21,859 nt of DNA from positions 1-21,859 of IMG/VR virus record IMGVR_UViG_3300041411_000200, one strand, 5' to 3'. This document shows positions 329 through 20,977 of the stretch, one piece after another (the first letter of the stretch is position 1; every line of letters starts with the position of its first letter). Position numbers and translations under genes: made by a program. The notes beneath the pieces are model-generated. The model saw nothing but the letters and a program-made list of their open reading frames with translations, was not told where the DNA came from and searched no databases. Origin of the DNA: a virus.

Positions 329-829
329 ATGGCGAATACGGCGAAGTCAGACGCTTATAAACATAAGTCGGCGGTACGATCAACGCAGTTAACTAAAGCG
401 CAAACTGAAAAGTTGCGCGATTGGCAGATGATGCAGGAAATGGGCCGGGCGCTAGGCATTGAAGTTCCCAAACCCATAACCAACAATCCCCTAGACCGCC
501 GAGTCAATACCCGAATAGAGTTGACCCCCGGATTAACCGTCACGCTCTCTGTGCGGCGTTCGCTGTACGACATACCTTTTCAGTATGTGCATCCGTCCTC
601 TTCTTTCATTCGATTTCTCGCCATCATGGAAGCCGAAAAGGCTGCCCGTGCCGAAGGCTTAGAAGTCCGCTTTGTGATAAGCGCGACCAATGAAGACGGC
701 GAAGAAGCCGTGTCAGTGAAACACACCCCACGCCCTGATATACAAAAGCCTGCTCCGCTTGTTTCAGCACAGCCGTACCATATGAGTCTGGCCGAAAAGG
801 CACTCGCCTCTGCGCGGTCACGTCTATGA
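329..829 (+). CDS. Hypothetical protein upstream of integrase
   Basis: This 166-residue protein is not recognised. The first ATG (329) has only a weak GAG 8 nt upstream. The N-terminus is basic and polar; residues 60-105 look like a beta-rich core (RIELTPGLTVTLSVRRS) followed by a helix rich in A, E and R. No membrane segment or signal peptide is seen. The stop overlaps the integrase start by 4 nt (ATGA at 826-829), so the two are probably translationally coupled. Position next to int might suggest a recombination directionality factor, but it is longer than usual excisionases and shows no clear winged-helix motif, so no function is assigned. Confidence 0.75.
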   Translation: MANTAKSDAYKHKSAVRSTQLTKAQTEKLRDWQMMQEMGRALGIEVPKPITNNPLDRRVNTRIELTPGLTVTLSVRRSLYDIPFQYVHPSSSFIRFLAIMEAEKAARAEGLEVRFVISATNEDGEEAVSVKHTPRPDIQKPAPLVSAQPYHMSLAEKALASARSRL

Positions 830-1989
830 AAAAGTCTCCCTCGACTCCCCGCACACGCAACCGCGACGGGCAACCTTGGCTACAGAAGCTAGATAGCGGT
901 GTGTGGCGTATCTGCCATTCTCCGGGCGATGGCACGACCACGCGGCTCTCTACCAAGACAAAGGACGAGGGACAGGCGAAAGAGGCGTTAGAGAGATACC
1001 GTCTCTCTCTCACTGGTGAGGGAAACAGAGAGCTGTTAACCGTAGGGGCAGTGTTCGACTACTACAGTGAACAGCACGTCAGTACCAAAGCGAATGACGT
1101 CGTGCGGCGCGACTTGGCCCTTGGCTGGCTACGCGCCAGTTTGGGACATTTGCCCGTCAGCACGCTGCAACGCAACCCCGCGGTGTTACAGCAATACATG
1201 CAGGCTAGACGCTCCGCGACAGCCCCGGTCTACGCGGGACGTGCCACGGCGAACCCCGTGCGTGAGGCTGGCGAGGGAACACTACGCTACGAAATGAACG
1301 CCCTGGTGACCGCCTTCAACTACGCCGCAAAGCACCAGCGCATCCCGGCCAATGCCTTGCCGCACTTCGACATGCCCGACGCTCCAGAAGGCAATGACGT
1401 GTGGCTGACTGAGGCCGAACACGACTGGCTGTTAGAGTTCGTGCGCTGGGAAGACGACGAAGGCCGCATGTCCCGCATCTGGCGATTCGTTGCCCTGGCT
1501 CTCGGCACAGCAGCGCGCAAGTCGGCCATTGTGCGGCTGGAATGGGACGACGTGGACCTGACCGCTTGCCGTATCTACTACCCAAAAGCCGCGCAGAAGA
1601 AGGGCGCACAAACGTCCTCTAAAAAGGTCGTGGCTGTCCCTATCTCTGACTGGCTTATACCTCTATTGAAGAGAGCGTACGACGAGCGCAAAACCCAGTA
1701 CGTGCTGGACGAGGCGACCGAACCGTCAGGGGCATTTGAGACGCTTTGCCGTCGCGCCTTCAAGGCAACCGGCAACGAGAAATTCCGCGATTTGACTCCG
1801 CACGTAATGCGCCACACTACTGCCACCTTGATGGCACGGGCAGGCGTTCCTATCGTCAACATCGCGGGCGTTTTGGGTAACTCTGTCGCTGTTTGCCAGC
1901 GCAACTATCTGCACCATACCCCTGATCACTTAGTTAACGCCGTTAACTTCCGCAAGCCAATAAGCACAACTATGGAACCCCTCTTGTGA
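826..1989 (+). CDS. int: Tyrosine recombinase integrase
   Basis: This 387-residue integrase would join phage and host DNA at the attachment site. The N-terminal part (about 1-60) resembles the arm-binding domain of phage integrases, about 70-175 is core-binding, and 190-370 is catalytic. Visible catalytic residues are R231 (TAARKSAIVRL), a lysine near 266-267, H326 and R329 (HVMRHTTATLM), and the nucleophile Y361 (NYLHHTPDHL). The second His/Trp position of the usual LGH motif is Asn here (LGN at 350-352). The length is normal for phage integrases. The gene is coupled to its neighbours by 4-nt overlaps (826 and 1986). No attachment core could be identified nearby. Confidence 0.93.
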   Translation: MKKSPSTPRTRNRDGQPWLQKLDSGVWRICHSPGDGTTTRLSTKTKDEGQAKEALERYRLSLTGEGNRELLTVGAVFDYYSEQHVSTKANDVVRRDLALGWLRASLGHLPVSTLQRNPAVLQQYMQARRSATAPVYAGRATANPVREAGEGTLRYEMNALVTAFNYAAKHQRIPANALPHFDMPDAPEGNDVWLTEAEHDWLLEFVRWEDDEGRMSRIWRFVALALGTAARKSAIVRLEWDDVDLTACRIYYPKAAQKKGAQTSSKKVVAVPISDWLIPLLKRAYDERKTQYVLDEATEPSGAFETLCRRAFKATGNEKFRDLTPHVMRHTTATLMARAGVPIVNIAGVLGNSVAVCQRNYLHHTPDHLVNAVNFRKPISTTMEPLL

Positions 1990-2663: not shown

Positions 2664-2909
2664 ATGTCCCGCCGCAATAGCGATGAATTTGATACGCGAG
2701 ATGCACCTAAATTTGTAGTTCGCTTTCGGCGACATGGGATGCCCGAAGAGGTTGCAGAACGCGCACGACTGGAGGCGCGTTCGATGAATGACATATGGAT
2801 GGTGGCGATGGAAGAGTACCTGCACGGCAAGCGGCGCAAGCACCTTTTGCTCGACGCCCTGGAGCGCCGCGCCACTGAACTGGGGATAACCCTCAAGGAT
2901 TTGATGTGA
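2664..2909 (+). CDS. Arc/Mnt-like ribbon-helix-helix protein
   Basis: This 81-residue protein has a short beta-strand KFVVRF (16-21), then PEEVAERARLEARSMNDI and a second helix (MVAMEEYL), the strand-helix-helix order of Arc-type repressors with the characteristic R-S-M-N turn between helices. The C-terminal 25 residues form an additional charged helix. Arc-family proteins dimerise and insert the two-stranded ribbon into the major groove. AAGGA lies upstream of the ATG. The end overlaps the GTG start of the next gene, indicating an operon with the MvaT-like gene. It could be one of the regulators that recognise the dispersed palindromes in this window, but this is not shown. Confidence 0.75.
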   Translation: MSRRNSDEFDTRDAPKFVVRFRRHGMPEEVAERARLEARSMNDIWMVAMEEYLHGKRRKHLLLDALERRATELGITLKDLM

Positions 2910-5361: not shown

Positions 5362-7827
5362 ATGACCGATAAACCTGAAACGGGCAAACGCCTGTCGAGC
5401 CGCCGCACGTCTGGCGCAAACCCAAACATCTGCTACCAGATCGCGCTGTCCACCAGTCGCGAATCCCCGCACATCACGCACAAGAGCCCGTCATGGGCTG
5501 AGCTGGTGCGCAAACTCTCTTCGCCCAAGCGCACGCCTGAGACATTCGCCGAATATCTGGCCATGTCCAAAGACGAGCAGGTCGCCGTCAAGGACGTTGG
5601 CAGCTTTGTGGCTGGCTCGTTCAAGGGCTTCAAACGCCGCAAGGACAAGCAGATAGACCGAACGCTGCTTACCCTGGACATCGACGAACCCGGCGTGAGC
5701 TGGCCCGAACTGCGCGCTGCTGTGAAAGGCGAGTACGTGGGCCTGCAATACGCGGCGCACACCACACACAAGCACTGTTTCGACCAGCCGCGGCTGCGCG
5801 TGGTGTTCACGCTCTCCCGGCCGGTGGATGACTTGGAATATCAGGCACTGTCCCGCCGTATTGCCGAAGGTCTGGACCCGGATATGACGTGGGTGGACCG
5901 GTGTTCGTTCGATTTCTCGCGTCTGATGTTCTGGCCATCGGCGGCGGTAGACGGCGAGTTCGAAGCCTGGAGCAACGACGGGGCGATCCTCGATGTCGAC
6001 GACGAGCTGGCCCACTACGCCGACTACACCGACTCGGCCGAGTGGCCGCGCCGTGCGGATGAAGACGAACACGTCGCGCAAATGACCCGCGAAGACCCAC
6101 GGGAGAAACGCGGGATCATTGGCACCTTCTGCCGGGCCTACGACATTCTCCGTTGCCTCGACGAGCTGTTACCAGGCACGTATGAGCCGACAGAGACAGA
6201 CGACCGCTTTACCTACATGGGCGGCACCACCAGCGGCGGCGCTCGCCTGTATCTGACGCCGGACGGGTTCCCGGCCTTCCTGCATTCAGAGCATGACCAT
6301 GATCCGGCGCGCGGTCAGCACGTCGCTTGGGACTTGGTGCGCTTGCACCTGGGGCTCGATGACGCAGGGATGGAAGCCTACGCCCGTGAACTGCCCGACA
6401 TAGCCGAAGCCCTTTGGGGCCAGTTGACGCACGAGTTCGAACCCGTCGCGCCCGAGGAAGGCGATAGTTCGCGCAAGCGCTTCGGCTGGCTGGGTGACTG
6501 GGTGTTCTGCGAGGGCGAAGGGAAGTTCTTCAACACTCGCACGCGTGGCCGCACATTAGGCCCGGCCAGCTTCAACGGGCGCTACGACCGGGAGGTCGTT
6601 AAAGACCTTGGCAGTGACAAAAACGGTCTGCCCGTGGTGCGCGCTGCTGACTGTGCGCTGGCCATTCGACCCATCCCCGTGGTCGATAGCTTGCAGTATT
6701 GGCCCGGTGAACAGGCGGTTTACGAGGTCGAAGGCGTGCGCTACGCGAATTCTTACCGGGATTTGCGGCCTGAGCCTGTCAGTTTGGCCGACAGCCACGC
6801 CGTCAACATGCTGTTGATGCACTTGGAAAACCTTTTCCCAGGCGACGGCGATTCGCAGGACATCGTTCTAGATTTTATGGCGCATCTGGTGCGTTTCCCT
6901 GAGCGGCGGTTGCAATACGCGTTGTTGATCCGGGGCGCCGAGACAGACGGCAAGACCTTTTTTGCGGAGGTGATGCGCTGTCTCTTGGGCACGGCCAACT
7001 GGATGACCATCGGCAACGACCAGATTAAAGAGCAGTACAGCGCTTGGCTTGAGGGCCATTTGTTGGTGTGCGTCGAGGAAATCAAGCAACACGGCCAGGA
7101 CGCGCAGGACACGCTTAACCGTCTGAAACCCTACATCACGAACACGATGGTTGGGGTTCGGGCGATGCGCCAAGACATGCGCCGGATTCGTAACTGCGTG
7201 AACTTCTTCCTGACCACGAACCATGGGGACGCCTTGCCCCTGGAGGACGGCGATTCGCGTTACTGCGTGCTGTCCACGCGCTTTACCGATAAGCACGACG
7301 TCGAAGAATGGGCGGCCGGCTGGGCCAGCCGACACGGCGGGAAGCCGTTCTATAAGGCGCTGTATGACACGCTCAAAGGTACAGGACCGGGCGAACTGCG
7401 GGCTTGGCTGGACGCACGACCATTCAGCGCGCTGTACAAGCCAGACTTGCGTGCGCCGGACACGGCCGCGAAGGGGTTCATGGTCGAGGCTGCGCGCACA
7501 GACGCGGATTCGTTGCTGCTGGAACTGCTGGCCGACGACTCAGCGCCCAGCATCACGCACGATTTCGTGGTGATCGCAGACTTCAAGGACATGGCCAACC
7601 GGCGCGGCGAGCCCTTGCCGACCACGTTCGCCGGCCGCACGGTTGCGCGATTCATGCTCAGCAAGGGGTATTTAACAGCGCGTAAGTGCCGCGCAGGGGC
7701 CAGGACTATCAATGTATGGGTGAGAAATCCGGCGTGGTTGAACAAGGATGACAAGCAACTAACGGGTTTTGCAGTCGATCAAGTGAAGAAAGCAGCGATA
7801 GCTTTTAAGAAGTTGAACCCAATTTGA
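5362..7827 (+). CDS. Primase-helicase (AEP-type primase plus D5/VirE-like helicase)
   Basis: This 821-residue replication protein has an N-terminal region consistent with an archaeo-eukaryotic primase domain: LTLDIDEPG (D106, D108), RLRVVFTLSRP (144-154) and DFSRLMFWPS (184-193). The middle is a linker region. The C-terminal half is a superfamily 3/D5-like ATPase with Walker A GAETDGKT (525-532), Walker B LLVCVEE (567-573), sensor FFLTTNH (615-621) and a following D-S-R (631-633). It would prime and unwind DNA for phage replication. It closes the early rightward block and is followed directly by a repeat-rich non-coding segment, the usual place for an origin. Start ATG 5362 is accepted by coupling with the short frame ending at 5360. 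Confidence 0.87.
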   Translation: MTDKPETGKRLSSRRTSGANPNICYQIALSTSRESPHITHKSPSWAELVRKLSSPKRTPETFAEYLAMSKDEQVAVKDVGSFVAGSFKGFKRRKDKQIDRTLLTLDIDEPGVSWPELRAAVKGEYVGLQYAAHTTHKHCFDQPRLRVVFTLSRPVDDLEYQALSRRIAEGLDPDMTWVDRCSFDFSRLMFWPSAAVDGEFEAWSNDGAILDVDDELAHYADYTDSAEWPRRADEDEHVAQMTREDPREKRGIIGTFCRAYDILRCLDELLPGTYEPTETDDRFTYMGGTTSGGARLYLTPDGFPAFLHSEHDHDPARGQHVAWDLVRLHLGLDDAGMEAYARELPDIAEALWGQLTHEFEPVAPEEGDSSRKRFGWLGDWVFCEGEGKFFNTRTRGRTLGPASFNGRYDREVVKDLGSDKNGLPVVRAADCALAIRPIPVVDSLQYWPGEQAVYEVEGVRYANSYRDLRPEPVSLADSHAVNMLLMHLENLFPGDGDSQDIVLDFMAHLVRFPERRLQYALLIRGAETDGKTFFAEVMRCLLGTANWMTIGNDQIKEQYSAWLEGHLLVCVEEIKQHGQDAQDTLNRLKPYITNTMVGVRAMRQDMRRIRNCVNFFLTTNHGDALPLEDGDSRYCVLSTRFTDKHDVEEWAAGWASRHGGKPFYKALYDTLKGTGPGELRAWLDARPFSALYKPDLRAPDTAAKGFMVEAARTDADSLLLELLADDSAPSITHDFVVIADFKDMANRRGEPLPTTFAGRTVARFMLSKGYLTARKCRAGARTINVWVRNPAWLNKDDKQLTGFAVDQVKKAAIAFKKLNPI

Positions 7828-11032: not shown

Positions 11033-11602
11033 ATGGCCAATCAGGCGTTAACTGCAATCAAAGAAGGCGCAGCGCCGACGCCAAGACGCGGCCCGACATC
11101 GGACGGAAAAGTCTCCGAAGCCCGTGCCACGTTCATTCGCGTGTTCTCCCGTACCGGTATGGCCACACTCGCAGCCGAGAAGGCAGGGTATGCAAACCCC
11201 GAAACGTCGGGCTTCCGTTTACGGAATGATCCGAAGGTCATAAAAGCCGTTCTAGAGGCCCGGCAGGGCTTCATTGAGGGCGAATTAGGGGGGCTCGCGT
11301 TCGCCGAACTCAAGGCGCTAATCACGGACCGGGAGCGCACACCGGCCTCGGTACGCTTCGCGGCCTGCAAGTGGGTTCTAGAGACGGCTGGGCATGGTCA
11401 GGCGGATATGATGTCAGATAATGGCAAAGCGCTAGCAGATATGACCCTGGCAGAGCTGGGCGCCTTCATTAAGCAAGGTGACAAGGTGCTGGCAGGATTG
11501 CAGTCAGCAACGGTCCAGGGCACTGCTGAGAGGGTTAACAGCACAACCGAACAGCAACTAGACCTAGTGACACGCCTAGAAGTGGCGGATTTGCTGGGCT
11601 AG
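11033..11602 (+). CDS. Terminase small subunit
   Basis: This 189-residue protein starts at ATG 11033 because GAGG precedes it at workable distance; the in-frame ATG 11006 has no spaced ribosome site. After a basic N-terminus, ATFIRVFSRTGMATLAAEKA and GYANPETSG form the helix-turn-helix used by small terminases to bind the packaging site, followed by NDPKVIKAVLEARQGFI and a long helical oligomerisation region. It would mark phage DNA for cutting and loading by the large subunit at 17087. It is unusual that 5.5 kb of tail-fibre and lysis genes separate the two subunits. Several palindromes precede it. Confidence 0.8.
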   Translation: MANQALTAIKEGAAPTPRRGPTSDGKVSEARATFIRVFSRTGMATLAAEKAGYANPETSGFRLRNDPKVIKAVLEARQGFIEGELGGLAFAELKALITDRERTPASVRFAACKWVLETAGHGQADMMSDNGKALADMTLAELGAFIKQGDKVLAGLQSATVQGTAERVNSTTEQQLDLVTRLEVADLLG

Positions 11603-11701: not shown

Positions 11702-11852
11702 CAGGGGGCGCAGCCACCAGCCGAGCAGAGCGAGGCAGGCAGCAGCATGGGCCAAGCCAGCCGACCCCCTGTCCACCCCTCCCCCCTAGTCGGCTGCGCA
11801 CGCGTGAATTCCTATCGGCCAATCTGACAAAATTTCGCCCCCTAAACATGAT

Positions 11853-11874: not shown

Positions 11875-11938
11875 TGAACAATTGTCCATCTGTCCAATTG
11901 TGCTACTGACCAAATGTCCATCTGTCCAAATGTACAAG
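11875..11938 (+). repeat. Tandem 8-bp repeat array, eight units
   Basis: Units start every 8 nt at 11875 and continue to 11938. Five of the eight begin with TG and differ from consensus TGTCCAAA at no more than two positions; TGTCCATC occurs twice exactly 32 nt apart. Because 8 is not a multiple of 3, overlapping reading frames through the array are artefacts. The last 17 nt are repeated in inverted orientation at 18698-18714. Confidence 0.8.
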
Positions 11939-12049
11939 CGACACACCTAACCGGTGTCACACCGCTTAGGCCTCAATCTGGCGCAACTGCCGGCCACTGA
12001 TCCAGCGGACCCCGCTCGCCGCTCACAATTTCAGTAAATAGGCTGTCCG

Positions 12050-12065
12050 TTGTCCGCACGGACAA
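12050..12065. promoter_or_regulatory. Palindrome TTGTCCGCACGGACAA, copy 2
   Basis: Perfect 7-bp half-sites around CA, 43 nt before the first tail-fibre start codon. A further TGTCCG half-site lies at 12044. The 14-bp core is identical to 10921-10934, the other late-region start. Confidence 0.65.
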
Positions 12066-12107
12066 CTACACTACCCGGCAATCAGCTATCCCCGAGGTCG
12101 CCGGACC

Positions 12108-12647
12108 ATGCCTGTTTCCACGCCTTTGCCCGCGCCGTACACGCGCCAAACGTCGTTTACCGACTGGGAAGCCAATCACCCTGGCGAGCCGGCGCCCGGC
12201 ACACAACTGGACGTCGAGTTCAACGCGGTCCGCACCTCGATCACAGAGACGCAGGACCGGCTGGCCCAAATCCAGAACGACGACGGTTCACTGGCCAACG
12301 GCTCAGTGGGCAAAGACCAGCTCTCGTCGGACATGCTCGCCGTGCTGACGGGCGGGTTCTACCCCCGCGGTGCGTGGCTGACGCTAACCGGGTACTCAGT
12401 GGGGGATGCGGTCAACGCGGACGGGATTTTGTGGGCGGCAGTGGTTGCACACGTCTCGACCGGCAACTTCGCCGCCGACGTGACGGCCGGTAAATGGATG
12501 TTCATCAACCAGCCCATTGCGGCGTCGTCCATCCCGGTAGACCCGATTTCGTCCATCCCTGTCACCAGCGTGCAAAGCGCCTTATCCCTGCTGGCGGTTC
12601 AGCTTCAAGCCCTGACCGCACGCGTTACCGCCCTGGAGAACGCGTAA
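12108..12647 (+). CDS. Tail-fibre-type protein 1
   Basis: This 179-residue protein has the segment LDVEFNAVRTSITETQDRLA (34-53) through NGSVGKDQL (64-72), a phage tail-fibre N-terminal motif that recurs almost residue for residue in the next protein. Residues 84-133 (YPRGAWLTLTGYSVGDAV, then an aromatic W-A-A-V-V-A-H stretch) resemble small beta-sandwich or chitin-binding-like modules found in fibre proteins. The C-terminus (LLAVQLQALTARVTALENA) is a short coiled coil, suiting a trimer. GAGG lies upstream. Its stop overlaps the next start (TAATG). Probably a virion-surface protein; exact role unknown. Confidence 0.65.
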   Translation: MPVSTPLPAPYTRQTSFTDWEANHPGEPAPGTQLDVEFNAVRTSITETQDRLAQIQNDDGSLANGSVGKDQLSSDMLAVLTGGFYPRGAWLTLTGYSVGDAVNADGILWAAVVAHVSTGNFAADVTAGKWMFINQPIAASSIPVDPISSIPVTSVQSALSLLAVQLQALTARVTALENA

Positions 12648-13462
12648 TGAGCCAGATTCCGAAGCCCTACGACCGGAAACACCCGTTTGGTTCAGCCTCG
12701 TCGAACAACCCGTCGAACCCGATTCAAGGCACGGACTTGGACGCCGAGTTCAACGCCGTCGAAGTGTCGATGGATCAGACGCAGGCGCGACTGGCTGAAA
12801 TCCAGCGCGACGACGGCAAGCTGCGCAATGAGTCCGTAGGCAAGGATCAGCTCGCGCAGGATGCGCTGGACTACATCACCGAAGTGGCCGAAGACGGCGC
12901 GGCGAACATCACCGGTCCAGCCATCGTCGTGATGAATCAGATCAAGGCCGACACGCTGGTCATCAAAGACCAAGCGGTTACGGCTCGCGATCAGGCCGAA
13001 AACTTCGCGGACCAAAGCGCAATGAGCGCGGCCAGTGCTGCCGCCAGTGCCATTGAATCCGGCGTCAGCGCGGACCTGTCCGAAGCCGAAGCCGTGCAGA
13101 GCGCGGCCAGCGCGGACCTGTCGCACTACTACTACAGCCAATTGTCCGGCGCGCTTGCAGCACTCGCGCCGCGCACCGTCGTGTTCGATGGCAACTCGGC
13201 GCAGGCCAGCTATGAGCTGCCGTCGTCGATTGCCGACGAAGAATTTTTGGACGTGTTCGTCGGCGGTCTGGTGGTCAACCCGTCGGAGTACGCCGTCACC
13301 GGCACCACGCTGACCTTCACGCCGCCGCCTGCCACGGGCACGCAAAACGTCCTCGTAAAAATTTCTTCAAGCGTTCAAATCATGCCGATTTTCGTGGACG
13401 ACTGGGGGTTCGTTTACGAGTCCATTTCGTCCGCCGAAGACTGGGGCGAAGTCACAGCCTAA
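12647..13462 (+). CDS. Tail-fibre-type protein 2
   Basis: This 271-residue protein starts at ATG 12647 (TAATG overlap), not at the upstream extension of the frame. Residues 28-69 repeat the fibre motif of protein 1. Residues about 95-165 are an alanine-rich coiled coil (SAASAAASAIESGVSADLS) with an internally repeated DNA word AGCGCGGACCTGTC. Residues about 175-240 (RTVVFDGNSAQASYELPSS, then VFVGGLVVNPSEYAV) match a beta-domain common in phage fibres that ends in a PPATGTQNVLVKI strand. It was probably derived by duplication of the N-terminal module of gene 1, or the reverse. Confidence 0.7.
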   Translation: MSQIPKPYDRKHPFGSASSNNPSNPIQGTDLDAEFNAVEVSMDQTQARLAEIQRDDGKLRNESVGKDQLAQDALDYITEVAEDGAANITGPAIVVMNQIKADTLVIKDQAVTARDQAENFADQSAMSAASAAASAIESGVSADLSEAEAVQSAASADLSHYYYSQLSGALAALAPRTVVFDGNSAQASYELPSSIADEEFLDVFVGGLVVNPSEYAVTGTTLTFTPPPATGTQNVLVKISSSVQIMPIFVDDWGFVYESISSAEDWGEVTA

Positions 13463-13480: not shown

Positions 13481-14932
13481 ATGGCGGGTAAACAGGTCCA
13501 ACGTCGTCGCGGTTCCACCGCTCAAACTGCTGTCTTTACGGGCGCAGTGGGTGAAATTACGGTCGACACCGATAAGAAAACGGCGGTCGTCCATGACGGC
13601 GTGACTGCGGGCGGTTTCCCGCTGGCGCGCATCACTGACGTTATCGACGTGGGTGGGGACGCAGACGCAGCCATGGCCGCGGCGGTCGCGGCGCAGACCA
13701 GCGCGAACACGGGTATTGCAAACGCCGCGACCGCGCAAACCCAAGCGAACTTGGGCGTCAGCAAAGCAGACACGGCGCAGGCCGAAGTCGACGCCCTGGA
13801 GACAGTCGTAGCGGATCTAGACGCGCACTCCGTACCGCGAGACAACACGACGGGCGCCGCTACGATCCCGGTAGGGAACAACGCGCAACGCCCGGTCGCG
13901 CCAGTCGAAGGGCAGTTTCGCTATAACAGCCAGTTGACCCGGTTCGAAGGCTACCAAAACGGGCAGTGGGCACAGGTGGGCGGGGATTCGTTGCCCATCT
14001 TTTTCACTACTTGGTGCCCCAACCGCGCCGCTGTCCCGGCCGGTTTTGTGGTCGCAGACGGGCAGTTGCTCAGCCGCGCCACCTACCCCGACGCGGCGGC
14101 GGCGATTAGCGCGGGCAACGTGCCAACGGTCGCTGACGCGACTTGGCTGTCGACGGTCATTCAGCGCGGCCGCTACACCTTGGGCGACGGTTCGACCACG
14201 TTCCGCATGCCGGACTACAACGGCAAATACACCGGCTCGCTGGGCGCCGTGTTTCTGCGTGGCGACGGCGCGATGTCGGCCGGCACCAACGGCGCGCTCC
14301 AACTCGATGAACTGAAATCCCACGCGCACACCTACGGCTCCGCCACCAGTAAGGCCGCCGATGGCGCGGTCCATGGCACGGCGATCAACCAAGGCGCCTA
14401 CGCAACGAGCAGCACAGGCGGCGCCGAAACCCGCCCGCTCAACGTGACCGGTTGCTGGGTCGTGAAATTGTTCGGCGCGGTTATCAATCCAGGGGCAGTG
14501 GACGCGGCGCAGTTGGCCAGCGACATGGCCAACATGCAGGCGACGGCGTACCAGCGTTCAAACATCCTCGGCGCGGTTTCGCAGGCCGCAGGCGTCCCAA
14601 CGGGCGCGCTAATGGACACGGGCAGCAACGCGAACGGCCGTTACATCAAGTACGCCGACGGCACGCTGATCTGCTGGTTCTACACCTCTACGCAATACGC
14701 GCTCACAACGTCTTACGGCTCCCAGTACATCAGCGGGAACATCACTTTAGCGTTCCCTGTGGGCTTCGTCGGAACCCCGATGGTTGTTCCGTCCGCCATC
14801 ACAACCCCGCAAGTCGTATGGGCCGCAATCGAGGGCAGCGCAAGTACGGCGGCGATGGCAATGCGCTTAATTGGCGTCGTAAACGGCGCTACTTCCTACG
14901 CGGGATATATCGCCATCGGGAGGTGGTTCTAA
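13481..14932 (+). CDS. Tail fibre with Mtd-like N-terminus and tail-collar domain
   Basis: This 483-residue protein begins QRRRGSTAQTAVFTGAVGEI (7-26) then TVDTDKKTAVVHDGVTAGGF, the N-terminal beta-prism-like module shared by major tropism determinant and phage hyaluronidase-type fibres. Residues 60-115 form an Ala/Thr-rich coiled coil. Residues 140-168 contain RYNSQLTRFEGYQNGQW, a fibre attachment repeat. Residues 185-285 form a tail-collar domain (VADGQLLSRATYP, then FRMPDYNGKY, FLRGDG, HAHTYG). The C-terminal 130 residues probably bind receptor. GGAGG lies 8 nt before the ATG inside a GGAGGCTCC dyad. It is the likely host-range protein. No reverse transcriptase or variable-repeat template is in the window. 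Confidence 0.85.
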   Translation: MAGKQVQRRRGSTAQTAVFTGAVGEITVDTDKKTAVVHDGVTAGGFPLARITDVIDVGGDADAAMAAAVAAQTSANTGIANAATAQTQANLGVSKADTAQAEVDALETVVADLDAHSVPRDNTTGAATIPVGNNAQRPVAPVEGQFRYNSQLTRFEGYQNGQWAQVGGDSLPIFFTTWCPNRAAVPAGFVVADGQLLSRATYPDAAAAISAGNVPTVADATWLSTVIQRGRYTLGDGSTTFRMPDYNGKYTGSLGAVFLRGDGAMSAGTNGALQLDELKSHAHTYGSATSKAADGAVHGTAINQGAYATSSTGGAETRPLNVTGCWVVKLFGAVINPGAVDAAQLASDMANMQATAYQRSNILGAVSQAAGVPTGALMDTGSNANGRYIKYADGTLICWFYTSTQYALTTSYGSQYISGNITLAFPVGFVGTPMVVPSAITTPQVVWAAIEGSASTAAMAMRLIGVVNGATSYAGYIAIGRWF

Positions 14933-16870: not shown

Positions 16871-17097
16871 GCATTGAACTGATCACGGGTTGGGAAAAGG
16901 CTTACAAGCTGAGTTCCGTGCAACTGGGCACGGCCGCCGTGATCGTGGCGGGCATGGACCAGTGGTTGCCCGCCGTGTCGGCGTTCCTGCCGCCCTGGTT
17001 GTCTGGCTTGCTGACCGCCGCCGCGATCATCGCCCGGCTGATTCAGCAGCCAAAGCTGGCGGCCGAAGTGAAGGCTGACCAACGTTATGGCGGCTAA
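16867..17097 (+). CDS. Third small membrane protein of the lysis cassette
   Basis: This 76-residue protein has an ATGA overlap with the endolysin. W-E-K-A-Y-K-L-S-S-V-Q precedes a hydrophobic helix (about 19-33), a P-x-x-L-P-P-W-L turn, a second helix (about 45-60) and ARLIQQPKL. This layout is common in phage holin-associated proteins placed after endolysins, and could be a pinholin, antiholin or an accessory. It lacks a lipobox, so it is not an outer-membrane spanin subunit. It overlaps the large terminase start by 11 nt. Confidence 0.6.
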   Translation: MSIELITGWEKAYKLSSVQLGTAAVIVAGMDQWLPAVSAFLPPWLSGLLTAAAIIARLIQQPKLAAEVKADQRYGG

Positions 17098-18694
17098 ACC
17101 CACGGCAGTAGACCGCGAGCGTCAAGACGCAATCGAGGCCTACCAGCGGCAAATCCATGCAGCCAAGCGGCTGGTGCAAGTGCGCGAGGCGCAAGAAAAC
17201 TTGCTGCGCTATACCCAGCTATCCATGCCTGACCCCGCGGACCCGGATAACCCGGATTCCAGCCGCTACAAGACCCACAAAATCCACGACTATCTGTCTG
17301 ACAAACTGATGGCCGTGGAGCGTGGCGAGATTCTGCGCCTGATCATTTCCGTACAGCCGCGGGTGGGTAAGTCAGAGCTGACCAGCCGGCGACTGCCGAC
17401 GTGGTTTGTGGGGCGCGATCCGTACCGCCAAGTGATCGTGGCCGCCTGCACCGACGACCTTGCCCTGGACTTCGGCCGTGAGTGCCGCGAAGTGATGCGC
17501 TCGCCGTTCTATCAGCAAGTGTTCCCCGGCGTGACGCTGCGCAAAGGCAACGCCTCCGCGGAACGTTTGCAGACCGTGCGCGGCGGAATTCTGACCTTCG
17601 CAGGCGTGGGCTCGACCATCACAGGCCGCGGCGGCGATCTGCTGATCATCGACGACCCCATCAAGTCGGCAGACGAGGCCCGCAGTAAGGCGAAACGCGA
17701 TTCGACCTGGACATGGTTCACACAAACCGCCATGTCTCGCGTGATGGGCACCGGGGGCGCTGTGGTGATCTGTGCGACGCGCTGGCATGAAGACGACATC
17801 ATCGGCCGCCTCACTGACCCGAAAAGCCCGTACTACAACGCACACGAAGCCAGCCGCTGGACTGTGATCAACATCCCGGCGTTTGCTGACGTGGATGATC
17901 CACTGGGCCGCGAGCCCGGCGAAATCCTGTGGCCAGAGCGAACCCCGCTCGCGCACTTGGAATCCATGCGCCGCCTCGATCCGGGCGGTTTTGCTGCGCT
18001 GTACATGGGACGGCCGGCGCCGCTGGAAGGCAACCACTTCAAGCGCGAACATATCTTGCCGTACCAGCCGGGCGACTTGCCCCGCAACTTGCGCTACTAC
18101 GCCGCAAGTGACCATGCCGTGTCCCTGGAGCAGAAGCGCGACAAAACGTGCATGGGCGTGATCGGCATCGACGACAAAGAAGACATTTGGATTCTGCCCG
18201 ATTTGGTCTGGCGGCAAATCGACGGCGAAACGCAAGTCGAAGCCATGCTGGACCTGATGCAGCGCTACCGGCCGCAAACGTGGTGGGCGGAAAAGGGGCA
18301 TATCAGCCTGTCGATTGGCCCATTTCTCCGTAAGCGGATGAATGAGACGAAAACCTACGTCGCCATCGACGAGCGCGTGCCCACGCGGGACAAGATGACG
18401 CGTTCGCAAGCCATCCAAGCCCGCATGAGCATGAAAAAGGTCCACTTCCCCGCGTTCGCGGGCTGGTATTCCGACGCGGTGGACGAGCTGCTGAACTTCC
18501 CGAACGGGCGCAATGACGACTTTGTGGACTTCATTTCTTGGGTGGGCATTGGTCTGGATTCGGTCGTGCGGGCCAGCAATGTGGTGCCGCTAGCCAGCGC
18601 TGCGCAGACGGGCTCTATCCAATGGATTCTGGAAAGCGCGGACCGGCTACGCAAGCGCGAAAAGACCGACGACCCACAGCGCTACTTACGTTAA
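17087..18694 (+). CDS. Terminase large subunit
   Basis: This 535-residue DNA-packaging motor has an ATPase half with Walker A SVQPRVGKS (88-96), Walker B LLIIDDP (185-191) and coupling motif CATRWHEDD (229-237). The nuclease half shows acidic residues at D342 (AASDHAV), E402 (WWAEKGHI) and DDFVDF (477-482), placed like those of RNase H-fold terminase nucleases. A helical N-terminal extension (about 1-45) may contact the small subunit. It translocates DNA into the prohead through the portal encoded next. The start overlaps the membrane gene upstream by 11 nt; it is the last gene before the second octamer array. Confidence 0.93.
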   Translation: MAAKPTAVDRERQDAIEAYQRQIHAAKRLVQVREAQENLLRYTQLSMPDPADPDNPDSSRYKTHKIHDYLSDKLMAVERGEILRLIISVQPRVGKSELTSRRLPTWFVGRDPYRQVIVAACTDDLALDFGRECREVMRSPFYQQVFPGVTLRKGNASAERLQTVRGGILTFAGVGSTITGRGGDLLIIDDPIKSADEARSKAKRDSTWTWFTQTAMSRVMGTGGAVVICATRWHEDDIIGRLTDPKSPYYNAHEASRWTVINIPAFADVDDPLGREPGEILWPERTPLAHLESMRRLDPGGFAALYMGRPAPLEGNHFKREHILPYQPGDLPRNLRYYAASDHAVSLEQKRDKTCMGVIGIDDKEDIWILPDLVWRQIDGETQVEAMLDLMQRYRPQTWWAEKGHISLSIGPFLRKRMNETKTYVAIDERVPTRDKMTRSQAIQARMSMKKVHFPAFAGWYSDAVDELLNFPNGRNDDFVDFISWVGIGLDSVVRASNVVPLASAAQTGSIQWILESADRLRKREKTDDPQRYLR

Positions 18695-18697
18695 CGC

Positions 18698-18745
18698 CTT
18701 GTACATTTGGACAGCCGTACATTTGGACAAATGGCCAAATGTACA
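18698..18745 (-). repeat. Tandem 8-bp repeat array, six units, inverted
   Basis: Read on the minus strand the units start every 8 nt; two are exactly TGTCCAAA and three begin TGTAC. They fill the 63-nt gap between large terminase and portal and end 1 nt before the portal ribosome site. On the plus strand GTACATTTGG (18717-18726) and CCAAATGTAC (18735-18744) can form a 10-bp hairpin just before AGGAG. The first 17 nt are the exact reverse complement of 11922-11938. Confidence 0.8.
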
Positions 18746-18757
18746 AAGGAGCGAGTT

Positions 18758-20977
18758 ATGTTGGACGACGACCAAAGCCCCCTGATGCCGGGCGAAATGA
18801 ATGGTGAAGGCGGTCCCGAGGGCCAGCCGAAACCCGCGCAGGGCGTGCCGCAAGCGCCAAGCCCGAGCGAGGCAGAAGCGGCCTTGGTCAAGCAGTGGAC
18901 TGCCCGAATCCGCAAGGCCAAGGCGCAATGGGCGCCCGTGTTCAAGCGGATGAAAGCAGACCAGAAGTTTGCCCATGGCGAGCAATGGCCACAGCAAACG
19001 CCCGAGGACCAGCGCTACGTGGCGAACATCACGCTGCGCGCTGTGAACCAGAAAGTGGCGGTGCTGTACGCGAAAAACCCGACCGCGATTGCCGTGCGGC
19101 GCAAGACCCTGGACTTCAAGATTTGGGATGGTTCGCTGGAGTCCCTGGAGCCGTTTAAACAAGCGCTTATGCCGCCAACGCCAGACACCATGGACCCGCA
19201 AACCGGGCAATTGATCCCCGGTACGCCGCCGCCTGACCCGCAAATGTTGCAGATGGCGAACATGGTTTTGCAGGACGTGCAGCAAGGCATGGCACGTCGG
19301 CTACAAGCGGACAAGATGGGCAAGACGCTCGAAATCGTCTACGAGTACGAGATTGGCGAGCAGGCGGTGCCGTTTAAAACCAGCATGAAACAACTGGTGC
19401 GCCGGACCATCACCACGGGCGTGGGCTACACGAAACTGGGTTACCACCGGTTCATGGAGAAACTACCCGGCGACGTGGACAAGATCACTGACGCGACCCA
19501 GCCACTTCGCCGGGCTGAGCGCATCGGCCTGGAGCAAGCGCAAGGTAACATCGAGCAAAGCGACCCTCAATCCGAAGAGTTGCTGCGCATGTCTGCCGCT
19601 GCGAACAGCGAGCCTGACATGCTGGTGAAAGAAGGGCTGGACTTCGAATTCCCGCCTTCGACATCGTTGATCGTTGACCCGCGGTGCCGCCAGTTGAAAG
19701 GCTTCGTCGGCGCTCGTTGGGTGGCGCAGGAATACATGCTGTCATGCGACGACGTGAAGGAGGTTTACGGCGTCGACGTGGCCAGCAACTACAACTCGCA
19801 CACGTCCGAAGGCGAGTCGGCCAGCACGAATACTCTGCTTTACGGGCCAGAAGACAAGCGCAGCCAGGGTGATTTGTGCGCGATTTACGAGCTGTACGAC
19901 AAAGCCACCGGCACTTGCATGACGCTCTGCGCCGGCTTCCCGTCGTTCATCGTACCGCCAGCCGCGCCGCCGCTGCGCCTCGAAAACTTCTGGCCATGGT
20001 TCGTGTTGACCTTCAACGACGCCGAAGACGAAGACGCGATTTTCCCGCCATCGGACGTGCATCTGATGCGCGGCATGCAAGTCGACTACAACTTGCGCCG
20101 TCAGCGGTTGCGCGAGCATTTGGACGCCGCCCGGCCGAAACATGCCGTGCCGAAAGGTTTGCTCGACGAGCAGGACAAAGCCAACCTGACCGCCTCGGCG
20201 GCGCACACCGTTGTCGAGTTGTCGGGCATGGTGCCAGGTACGTCGATTGATTCGGTTTTGCAGCGCGTGCCATACAGCCCGGTCGATCCAGCGTTGTACG
20301 AGGTCGATTCGTGTTTCTCCGACTTGCTGAAAGTGGTGGGCACGCAAGAAGCGAACTTGGGTGGCACCAGTGGCTCGACGGCCACGGAATCGAGCATTGC
20401 CGAGTCCAGCCGGATGACCGCGCAGGGCTCTAACGTCGATGACTTGGACGACTTCCTGACGGAAATGGCCAAAGCTGCCAGCCACGTTTTGCTGCTGGAA
20501 ATGTCGCCAGAGGAAGTAATCCGCATTGCAGGTCCAGGTGCAGTCTGGCCCGAACTGAGCAACGAACAAGTTGCCCAGGACTTGACCCTCAACATCAAAG
20601 CCGGCTCCAGCGGACGCCCAAACAAGGCCGCGGAAATTCAGAACATGGAGCGTCTCGCGCCATTGCTGATGCAGATTCCGGGGATCAAACCGCAGTGGCT
20701 GGCCGAGCAAGTGGTGCAGCGTTTGGACGACCGGATCGACACGACGGACGCCGTTGCGCAGTCGTTGCCATCGATCACAGCGCTTAACCAGCAAGTCCAA
20801 CCGGGCATGGGCGCACCGGGCACGGACCCAAATCAGCAAGGGGCGCAGGGCGCGAACAACGCGCAAAAGCCCCCGGCTGGTAGCAGCATGGGGCCGGGCG
20901 CTACGCAGCAAACCAACATGCCGCCGACCACGCCAGGCAATGTCGTTTCGATGGCGCAAGGCAACCCGATGGGCTAA
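18758..20977 (+). CDS. Portal protein
   Basis: This 739-residue protein starts at ATG 18758 with GGAG 7 nt upstream; an upstream TTG in frame would translate the octamer array and is rejected. The portal is the dodecameric ring at the capsid vertex through which DNA enters and the tail attaches. Supporting sequence: early helical segment with HGEQWPQQ, TLRAVNQKVAVLYAKNP, the central stem-like region (about 430-560), and SGSTATESSIAESSRMT, a portal signature. The length is close to the P22-type portals. The C-terminal 60 residues are Gly/Pro/Gln-rich and probably disordered. A terminator follows at once, so head genes expected downstream are not in this transcript. Confidence 0.85.
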   Translation: MLDDDQSPLMPGEMNGEGGPEGQPKPAQGVPQAPSPSEAEAALVKQWTARIRKAKAQWAPVFKRMKADQKFAHGEQWPQQTPEDQRYVANITLRAVNQKVAVLYAKNPTAIAVRRKTLDFKIWDGSLESLEPFKQALMPPTPDTMDPQTGQLIPGTPPPDPQMLQMANMVLQDVQQGMARRLQADKMGKTLEIVYEYEIGEQAVPFKTSMKQLVRRTITTGVGYTKLGYHRFMEKLPGDVDKITDATQPLRRAERIGLEQAQGNIEQSDPQSEELLRMSAAANSEPDMLVKEGLDFEFPPSTSLIVDPRCRQLKGFVGARWVAQEYMLSCDDVKEVYGVDVASNYNSHTSEGESASTNTLLYGPEDKRSQGDLCAIYELYDKATGTCMTLCAGFPSFIVPPAAPPLRLENFWPWFVLTFNDAEDEDAIFPPSDVHLMRGMQVDYNLRRQRLREHLDAARPKHAVPKGLLDEQDKANLTASAAHTVVELSGMVPGTSIDSVLQRVPYSPVDPALYEVDSCFSDLLKVVGTQEANLGGTSGSTATESSIAESSRMTAQGSNVDDLDDFLTEMAKAASHVLLLEMSPEEVIRIAGPGAVWPELSNEQVAQDLTLNIKAGSSGRPNKAAEIQNMERLAPLLMQIPGIKPQWLAEQVVQRLDDRIDTTDAVAQSLPSITALNQQVQPGMGAPGTDPNQQGAQGANNAQKPPAGSSMGPGATQQTNMPPTTPGNVVSMAQGNPMG

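Follow-up and report, generated by a model that had tools for sequence, protein, structure and literature searches.

The locus considered here raises the question of why a run of short, regularly spaced repeats should stand in non-coding DNA at the head of a set of phage tail-fibre genes. The window, i.e., the whole stretch of DNA analyzed, corresponds to a 21,859-bp virus record in IMG/VR, whose gene content includes an integrase, an MvaT-like silencer, an Arc-like protein, a DUF5906-domain protein, RusA, a tail fibre, an endolysin, a terminase and a portal. As the first-pass annotation had described, the repeats (array A) consist of eight consecutive octamers in an exact 8-bp register, located between an ORF end at 11602 and the ATG at 12108. 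The units, in order, are TGAACAAT TGTCCATC TGTCCAAT TGTGCTAC TGACCAAA TGTCCATC TGTCCAAA TGTACA(AG).

Scored against a core set of TGTACA, TGTCCA, TGGACA and TGGCCA, array A matched 44 of 48 core positions, versus a best value of 31 of 48 among 60 dinucleotide shuffles of the window, and it was detected independently by Tandem Repeats Finder. Of the consensus first proposed, TGTCCAAA, the register was retained but the sequence was revised, since four of the eight units depart from an exact TGTCCA. The unit is best written as TGNNCA followed by a 2-bp spacer, in which the middle two bases are mostly TA, TC or GA. A CRISPR array is ruled out, as had been noted from the outset, by the 8-bp units and 2-bp spacers (versus repeats of at least 20 bp with unique spacers of similar length). 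The array would overlie the transcript start of a weak sigma-70-like promoter match, which is not in itself evidence of function (Table 1).

Array A is not a single occurrence. A second array (array B), of opposite orientation and better scoring than array A, ends 12 nt 5' of the portal ATG and adjoins the AAGGAG ribosome-binding site of this gene. Pairs of TG[TG][AC]CA at a lag of 8 numbered six in the window (shuffle mean, 0.00) and 20 in a close relative, G001 (0.05 in shuffles). With the exception of lags 8 and 16, each lag from 6 to 18 yielded at most one such pair, and three pairs were observed at lag 16 in the window.

The relative G001 (IMGVR_UViG_3300022173_000070; 46,604 bp) was recovered in a pattern scan of viral contigs and matches the window at 97% identity across 21.6 kb. 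It carries both of the window arrays together with about seven others, ∼9 in total, while the array detector returned none in 20 mononucleotide shuffles. According to the gene models, every array in G001 is located just 5' of a gene start, in the sense of that gene, and several adjoin ribosome-binding sites; array A is the farthest from its gene among them. Arrays A and B, the array before parA and those near 1479 and 25993 comprise at least four units, and several others only three.

Table 1. Coordinates of the arrays and associated genes in the window and its relatives.
Feature	Sequence	Coordinates	Strand	Remarks
Tyrosine integrase	window	826-1989		
Arc-like RHH protein	window	2664..2909	+	Pfam PF03869, 27.5 bits, over its curated cut-off
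Weak sigma-70-like promoter match, CTGACA-17-CATGAT	window	11824..11852	+	1 found vs 0.2 expected in shuffles
Array A	window	11875..11936	+	8 units, core TGNNCA + 2-bp spacer; 22 nt 3' of the weak promoter-like site; end 171 nt 5' of first tail-fibre gene
First gene 3' of array A (tail-fibre module)	window	12108..12647	+	
Second tail-fibre-module gene	window	12647..13462	+	ATG chosen as in G001
Tail fibre protein	window	13481..14932	+	PHROGs tail fibre families, best E 9e-38
Terminase large subunit	window	17087..18694	+	5' of array B; phrog_38, E 3e-93
Array B	window	18700..18745	- (best reading)	6 octamers between terminase large subunit and portal; 35/36 core matches
Portal protein	window	18758..20977	+	start preceded by array B; phrog_156, E 2e-8
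Array before gene starting near 1479	G001		gene on -	at least 4 units
Array B counterpart	G001	5378-5423		
Array A counterpart	G001	12199-12260		one spacer substitution vs window
Array before gene starting near 25993	G001			at least 4 units
Array before ssDNA-binding protein	G001			
Array before DNA polymerase A	G001			
Array before parA	G001	30478-30515		5 octamers, 54 nt 5' of parA; kept in L012
parA	G001	30570-31196		208 aa; phrog_164, E 4e-26 (PHROGs); AAA_31/CbiA (Pfam)
Array before small gene 3' of parA	G001			
Array before gene near 45777	G001			
Array B counterpart, diverged	L022	11791-11836		

The first-pass annotation had named absence or lack of conservation in close relatives as the outcome that would speak against a functional array. 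At the level of sequence, the opposite was observed. Array A, for which G001 provides the sole comparison, is present there with its single substitution, and all seven of the G001 arrays covered by more distant relatives (L012/L040, 86% identical to G001 over 6.1 kb, and L022, 81-91% over the main aligned blocks) are present in these as well. Among 32 orthologous units, the outer TG..CA was changed at one of 128 positions, versus 12 of 64 in the middle two bases and 15 of 64 in the spacer (1/128 versus 27/128; Fisher p=5e-8), a constraint that is somewhat overstated, since the arrays were found via the motif itself and the comparison was limited to units whose register was clear in both relatives. 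Two units were replaced by their exact reverse complement (TGTCCA to TGGACA and TGTTCA to TGAACA), a change that would be tolerated by a dimer of two-fold symmetry that reads the outer bases. The conserved TG..CA, the free middle and spacer positions, and the restriction to a lag of 8 and its double together fit two-fold symmetric recognition at a fixed short spacing.

A candidate for the protein that would recognize these units was found in the other half of the genome, outside the window record. In G001, parA, which encodes a small Walker-type ParA, is followed directly by a gene for an 80-aa protein (31255-31497), and arrays precede both genes. Of the hallmarks of a type Ib (ParA plus RHH) partition system, the small ParA and the short-repeat array 5' of its gene are thus present in this relative. 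This protein has no match in Pfam, even at E<1, and its assignment as a ribbon-helix-helix (RHH) protein is based instead on its place after parA, its strand-helix-helix pattern, its profile rank and the ParG match of its family. The confidence of the single-sequence AlphaFold model is low as a whole (pLDDT 63.5), its best-scored part being the pair of helices that an RHH domain should have (residues 40-52 and 57-69); the strand was read from the sequence. A profile of the partner proteins of other parA cassettes, which excluded those of G001 and of an unrelated phage, G002, ranked the G002 and G001 proteins first and second of 2,741 ORFs (E values of 3e-6 and 0.02, respectively). When both proteins were included, the parA-partner profile matched ParG (1p94) first in the PDB, with an E value of 3e-6, followed by ParD and subsequently CopG. 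When the PDB was searched by sequence with the 80-aa protein by itself, the matches were all weak and to unrelated proteins, and tblastn against phage records gave none; scans of viral sequences with parA and the small protein recovered G001 only, plus L012 in the case of parA. Individually these lines are weak, and jointly they point with moderate confidence to a ParG-type RHH fold.

The octamer period itself was examined in 18 other cassettes of parA and a small protein, collected from ParA tblastn matches in phages and plasmids, the partner being picked by position as the next small gene after parA. Periodicity was measured over the 150 bp 5' of parA at lags of 5 to 15. In the 19 regions, G001 included, lag 8 gave a combined Z of 16.3, to be read as an upper figure because some of the cassettes are mutually related, and was followed by lag 12 (Z of 4.6). 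Lag 8 ranked first in 13 of these regions; at several parA loci (RcCronus, Serratia, E. coli 28 kb), the 8-bp period was individually absent. The repeats of the cassettes mostly differ from TGNNCA, e.g., ATTTCAGC in a Pseudomonas amygdali plasmid. As a set, the ParA/small-RHH cassettes are characterized by the 8-bp period, which is possibly a general mark of such cassettes that would be useful in predicting centromeres despite their unrelated repeat sequences.

Several known systems show parts of this arrangement. The MetJ and Arc repressors also act as RHH dimers on tandem short boxes, which in MetJ measure 8 bp. Unlike the phage cassette, they are metabolic or immunity repressors without ParA, and no array stands before the window's own Arc-like gene. 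The delta/omega system of pSM19035 is similarly composed of a small ParA and an RHH protein, with contiguous short repeats, in either orientation, over several promoters; the number of repeats sets the affinity, and a single protein serves in both partition and repression (PMC9499535, PMC5016525). At the promoters of copS, delta and omega, the omega repressor occupies repeats of 7 bp (the parS heptads), of which at least four must be contiguous for full ParA activation (PMC9499535). Since omega on its iterons forms a protein helix that winds round the DNA (PMC5016525, PMC9499535), the spiral of adjacent protein copies envisaged by the first-pass annotation is the expected geometry, whereas the unfamiliarity it ascribed to an octamer period is not borne out, this period standing 5' of parA in the cassettes as a set. 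The two systems differ in that the plasmid has 7-bp WATCACW repeats at three promoters, while the phage has 8-bp TGNNCA units at ∼9 places, late structural genes included. In parFGH of TP228 (centromere parH, operator OF), a parA-type gene is again accompanied by a small RHH partner, with degenerate short boxes and spacers upstream; ParG coats the tetramer boxes with AT-rich spacers of the centromere and represses its own operon (PMC7308502). ParG is also the protein ranked first by the partner-protein profile. The TP228 sites, however, are described at the par locus and have another box sequence, in contrast to the genome-wide arrays of the phage. Finally, partition-protein sites scattered over a temperate phage genome are described for N15, in the statement that PMC5016525 draws from Ravin and Lane (1999), and four IR sites are given in PMC7205306. 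SopB of N15 is a ParB of type Ia, bound to four inverted-repeat sites that lie apart from one another, and differs in this from an RHH protein of type Ib on arrays of octamers.

Taken together, the observations indicate that array A is probably a tandem operator for a phage-encoded RHH protein of the ParG/omega kind, the 80-aa product encoded after parA, and would be part of a dispersed regulon. One RHH dimer would occupy each near-palindromic TGNNCA, every 8 bp, and the dimers would bind cooperatively, forming a protein helix round the DNA. The earlier suggestion of a cooperative binding array heading the tail-fibre operon is supported, as far as conservation of sequence in relatives can speak for it. 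A filament formed on array A would overlie the point where the tail-fibre transcript begins and repress transcription. The array before the RHH gene itself would provide autoregulation, and the further arrays before parA, the portal and the DNA-replication genes would constitute the remainder of the regulon. Arrays of at least four units could have a second function as centromeres in ParA-driven segregation, provided that the prophage is extrachromosomal; such a role may be unnecessary, since the phage encodes a tyrosine integrase. Neither an integrated nor a free form of the prophage was found.

A more far-reaching version, which we regard as tentative, would make the partition RHH protein a global regulator that, via arrays of different length, segregates the prophage and also holds the replication, packaging and tail genes off. 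Partition and lysogeny would then form one circuit, and the unrelated G002 lineage would use the same octamer code without parA. RHH arrays, ParA/RHH cassettes and scattered partition sites are all known already; the open-access literature searched yielded no type Ib array set distributed over a phage genome ahead of its replication, packaging and tail genes. The proteins of type Ib partition systems are familiar as binders of plasmid centromeres that also repress a few promoters of their own. With ∼9 such arrays ahead of replication, packaging and tail genes, the phage would show this family acting as a switch for a whole phage genome, and intergenic TGNNCA units at 8-bp intervals, 5' of gene starts, would serve as a signature for finding such regulons.

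Other explanations bear on the binder and on the function of the arrays. As a binder, the Arc-like product of 2664-2909 ranks second, and the arrays would then represent an ordinary Arc-type regulon unrelated to partition. The protein is encoded within the window, its Pfam Arc match exceeds the curated cut-off, and RHH proteins generally bind short tandem boxes; nevertheless, its own gene has no array in front, whereas parA and the parA-linked gene both have one, and in G002 the octamers are present while an Arc-like homologue is not convincing (a weak tblastn match only), so that this assignment appears unlikely. A slightly lower probability is given to the arrays being mainly scattered centromeres of an extrachromosomal prophage, with incidental effects on the neighbouring genes. 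ParA and its partner are present, several arrays reach the four contiguous units needed in pSM19035 (PMC9499535), and N15 offers a precedent for genome-scattered sites in the account cited above (PMC5016525 citing Ravin and Lane 1999). Yet the position of nearly every array, just 5' of a gene start and often next to the ribosome-binding site, is more in keeping with operators, several arrays are limited to three units, and an integrase is present.

The proximity to ribosome-binding sites would also be expected if the repeats acted as RNA, either as hairpins or as a protein-bound mRNA leader controlling translation of the downstream gene. RNA folding in G001 gave z values of -4.6 before the DNA polymerase and -6.1 before parA, and the hairpin at the polymerase site still folds in L012 (z of -6.9) with a different sequence. 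Against this, array A has no fold (z of -0.4), the parA-site hairpin collapses in L012 (z of -1.1) although every TG..CA is kept there, and palindromic units yield hairpins by construction; the RNA explanation is accordingly disfavoured and considered improbable as a general account. The polymerase array (L009 8312-8349, in G001, and L012 3352-3381) forms a strong hairpin in both phages, with differing arms, and may have an extra RNA-level role. Least probable is a neutral or mobile origin, in which tandem repeats born of slippage were scattered by recombination. The copies are indeed dispersed, relatives vary at one site in their number of units, and bacterial loci with the pattern are mostly simple repeats of near-identical units. 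The phage units, by contrast, are degenerate, differing mostly at the middle and spacer, while TG..CA is strongly constrained, and their positions are orthologous in relatives of 81-91% DNA identity. The slippage-prone switch once proposed for array A finds no support, because the units are degenerate and their outer bases are held by selection, and a microsatellite does not fit this position-specific constraint; the companion proposal of a mobile-repeat remnant is unlikely because the arrays occupy orthologous places under purifying selection.

Similar octamers were also detected in phages of other lineages. G002 (contig L027, 61.6 kb) has no DNA similarity to G001 and contains TGTACA/TGTCCA octamer pairs at about nine dispersed sites, versus none when the pattern is read backwards. 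It encodes a 71-aa RHH protein (Antitox_RHH), whose strand, RMPVNIP, compares with RLPVDMP in G001. No parA was found in a search of G002; parA is therefore not required for the octamers, which occur there together with an RHH protein. One of the G002 sites lies inside a structural-module ORF, and the phage also carries an integrase-like gene and a 102-aa gene that is HU/IHF-like by eye. A possible third phage lineage with the octamer code is represented by a 55.6-kb record (G005), in which TGTCCATA TGTACAAA TGTACA and a nearby TGGACAGATGTACA pair stand between two genes (L070 9490-9601). Four candidates of the first pattern scan (L003, L005, L006 and L007) were set aside, their units being more uniform and no second array being present in the stretch examined. 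Among bacterial genomes, 68 loci contained four exact units in a genome-wide scan; most were simple repeats of near-identical units, and no relative of the window phage was recognized among them. On three contigs of a single genome, that of Clostridium intestinale DSM 6191 (L086, L099, L125), several arrays of the octamer TGTACANN occur in clusters, with spacers that vary.

Further features of the window genes were apparent. The portal is 40-42% identical to those of phages Mae-Yong1326-1 and RHph_N65, and the stretches examined in these two phages contain no octamer pairs at lag 8. A search for the portal in the genome of Pseudomonas asuensis and 12 others of its genus gave no match and, having no positive control, is uninformative. 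At 2235-2909, a homologue of the MvaT-like xenogeneic silencers (Pfam MvaT_DBD) is followed directly by the Arc-like RHH gene, and the phage thus has an MvaT-type silencer homologue of its own; relatives of the Arc-like protein are present in many Pseudomonas phages. Between array A and the start of the first tail-fibre gene, the window contains a stem-loop at 12042-12066 (GTCCG TTGTCCGCA CGGAC). The loop of its counterpart in G001 is the reverse complement (TGCGGACAA), which represents a small loop inversion between two close phages.
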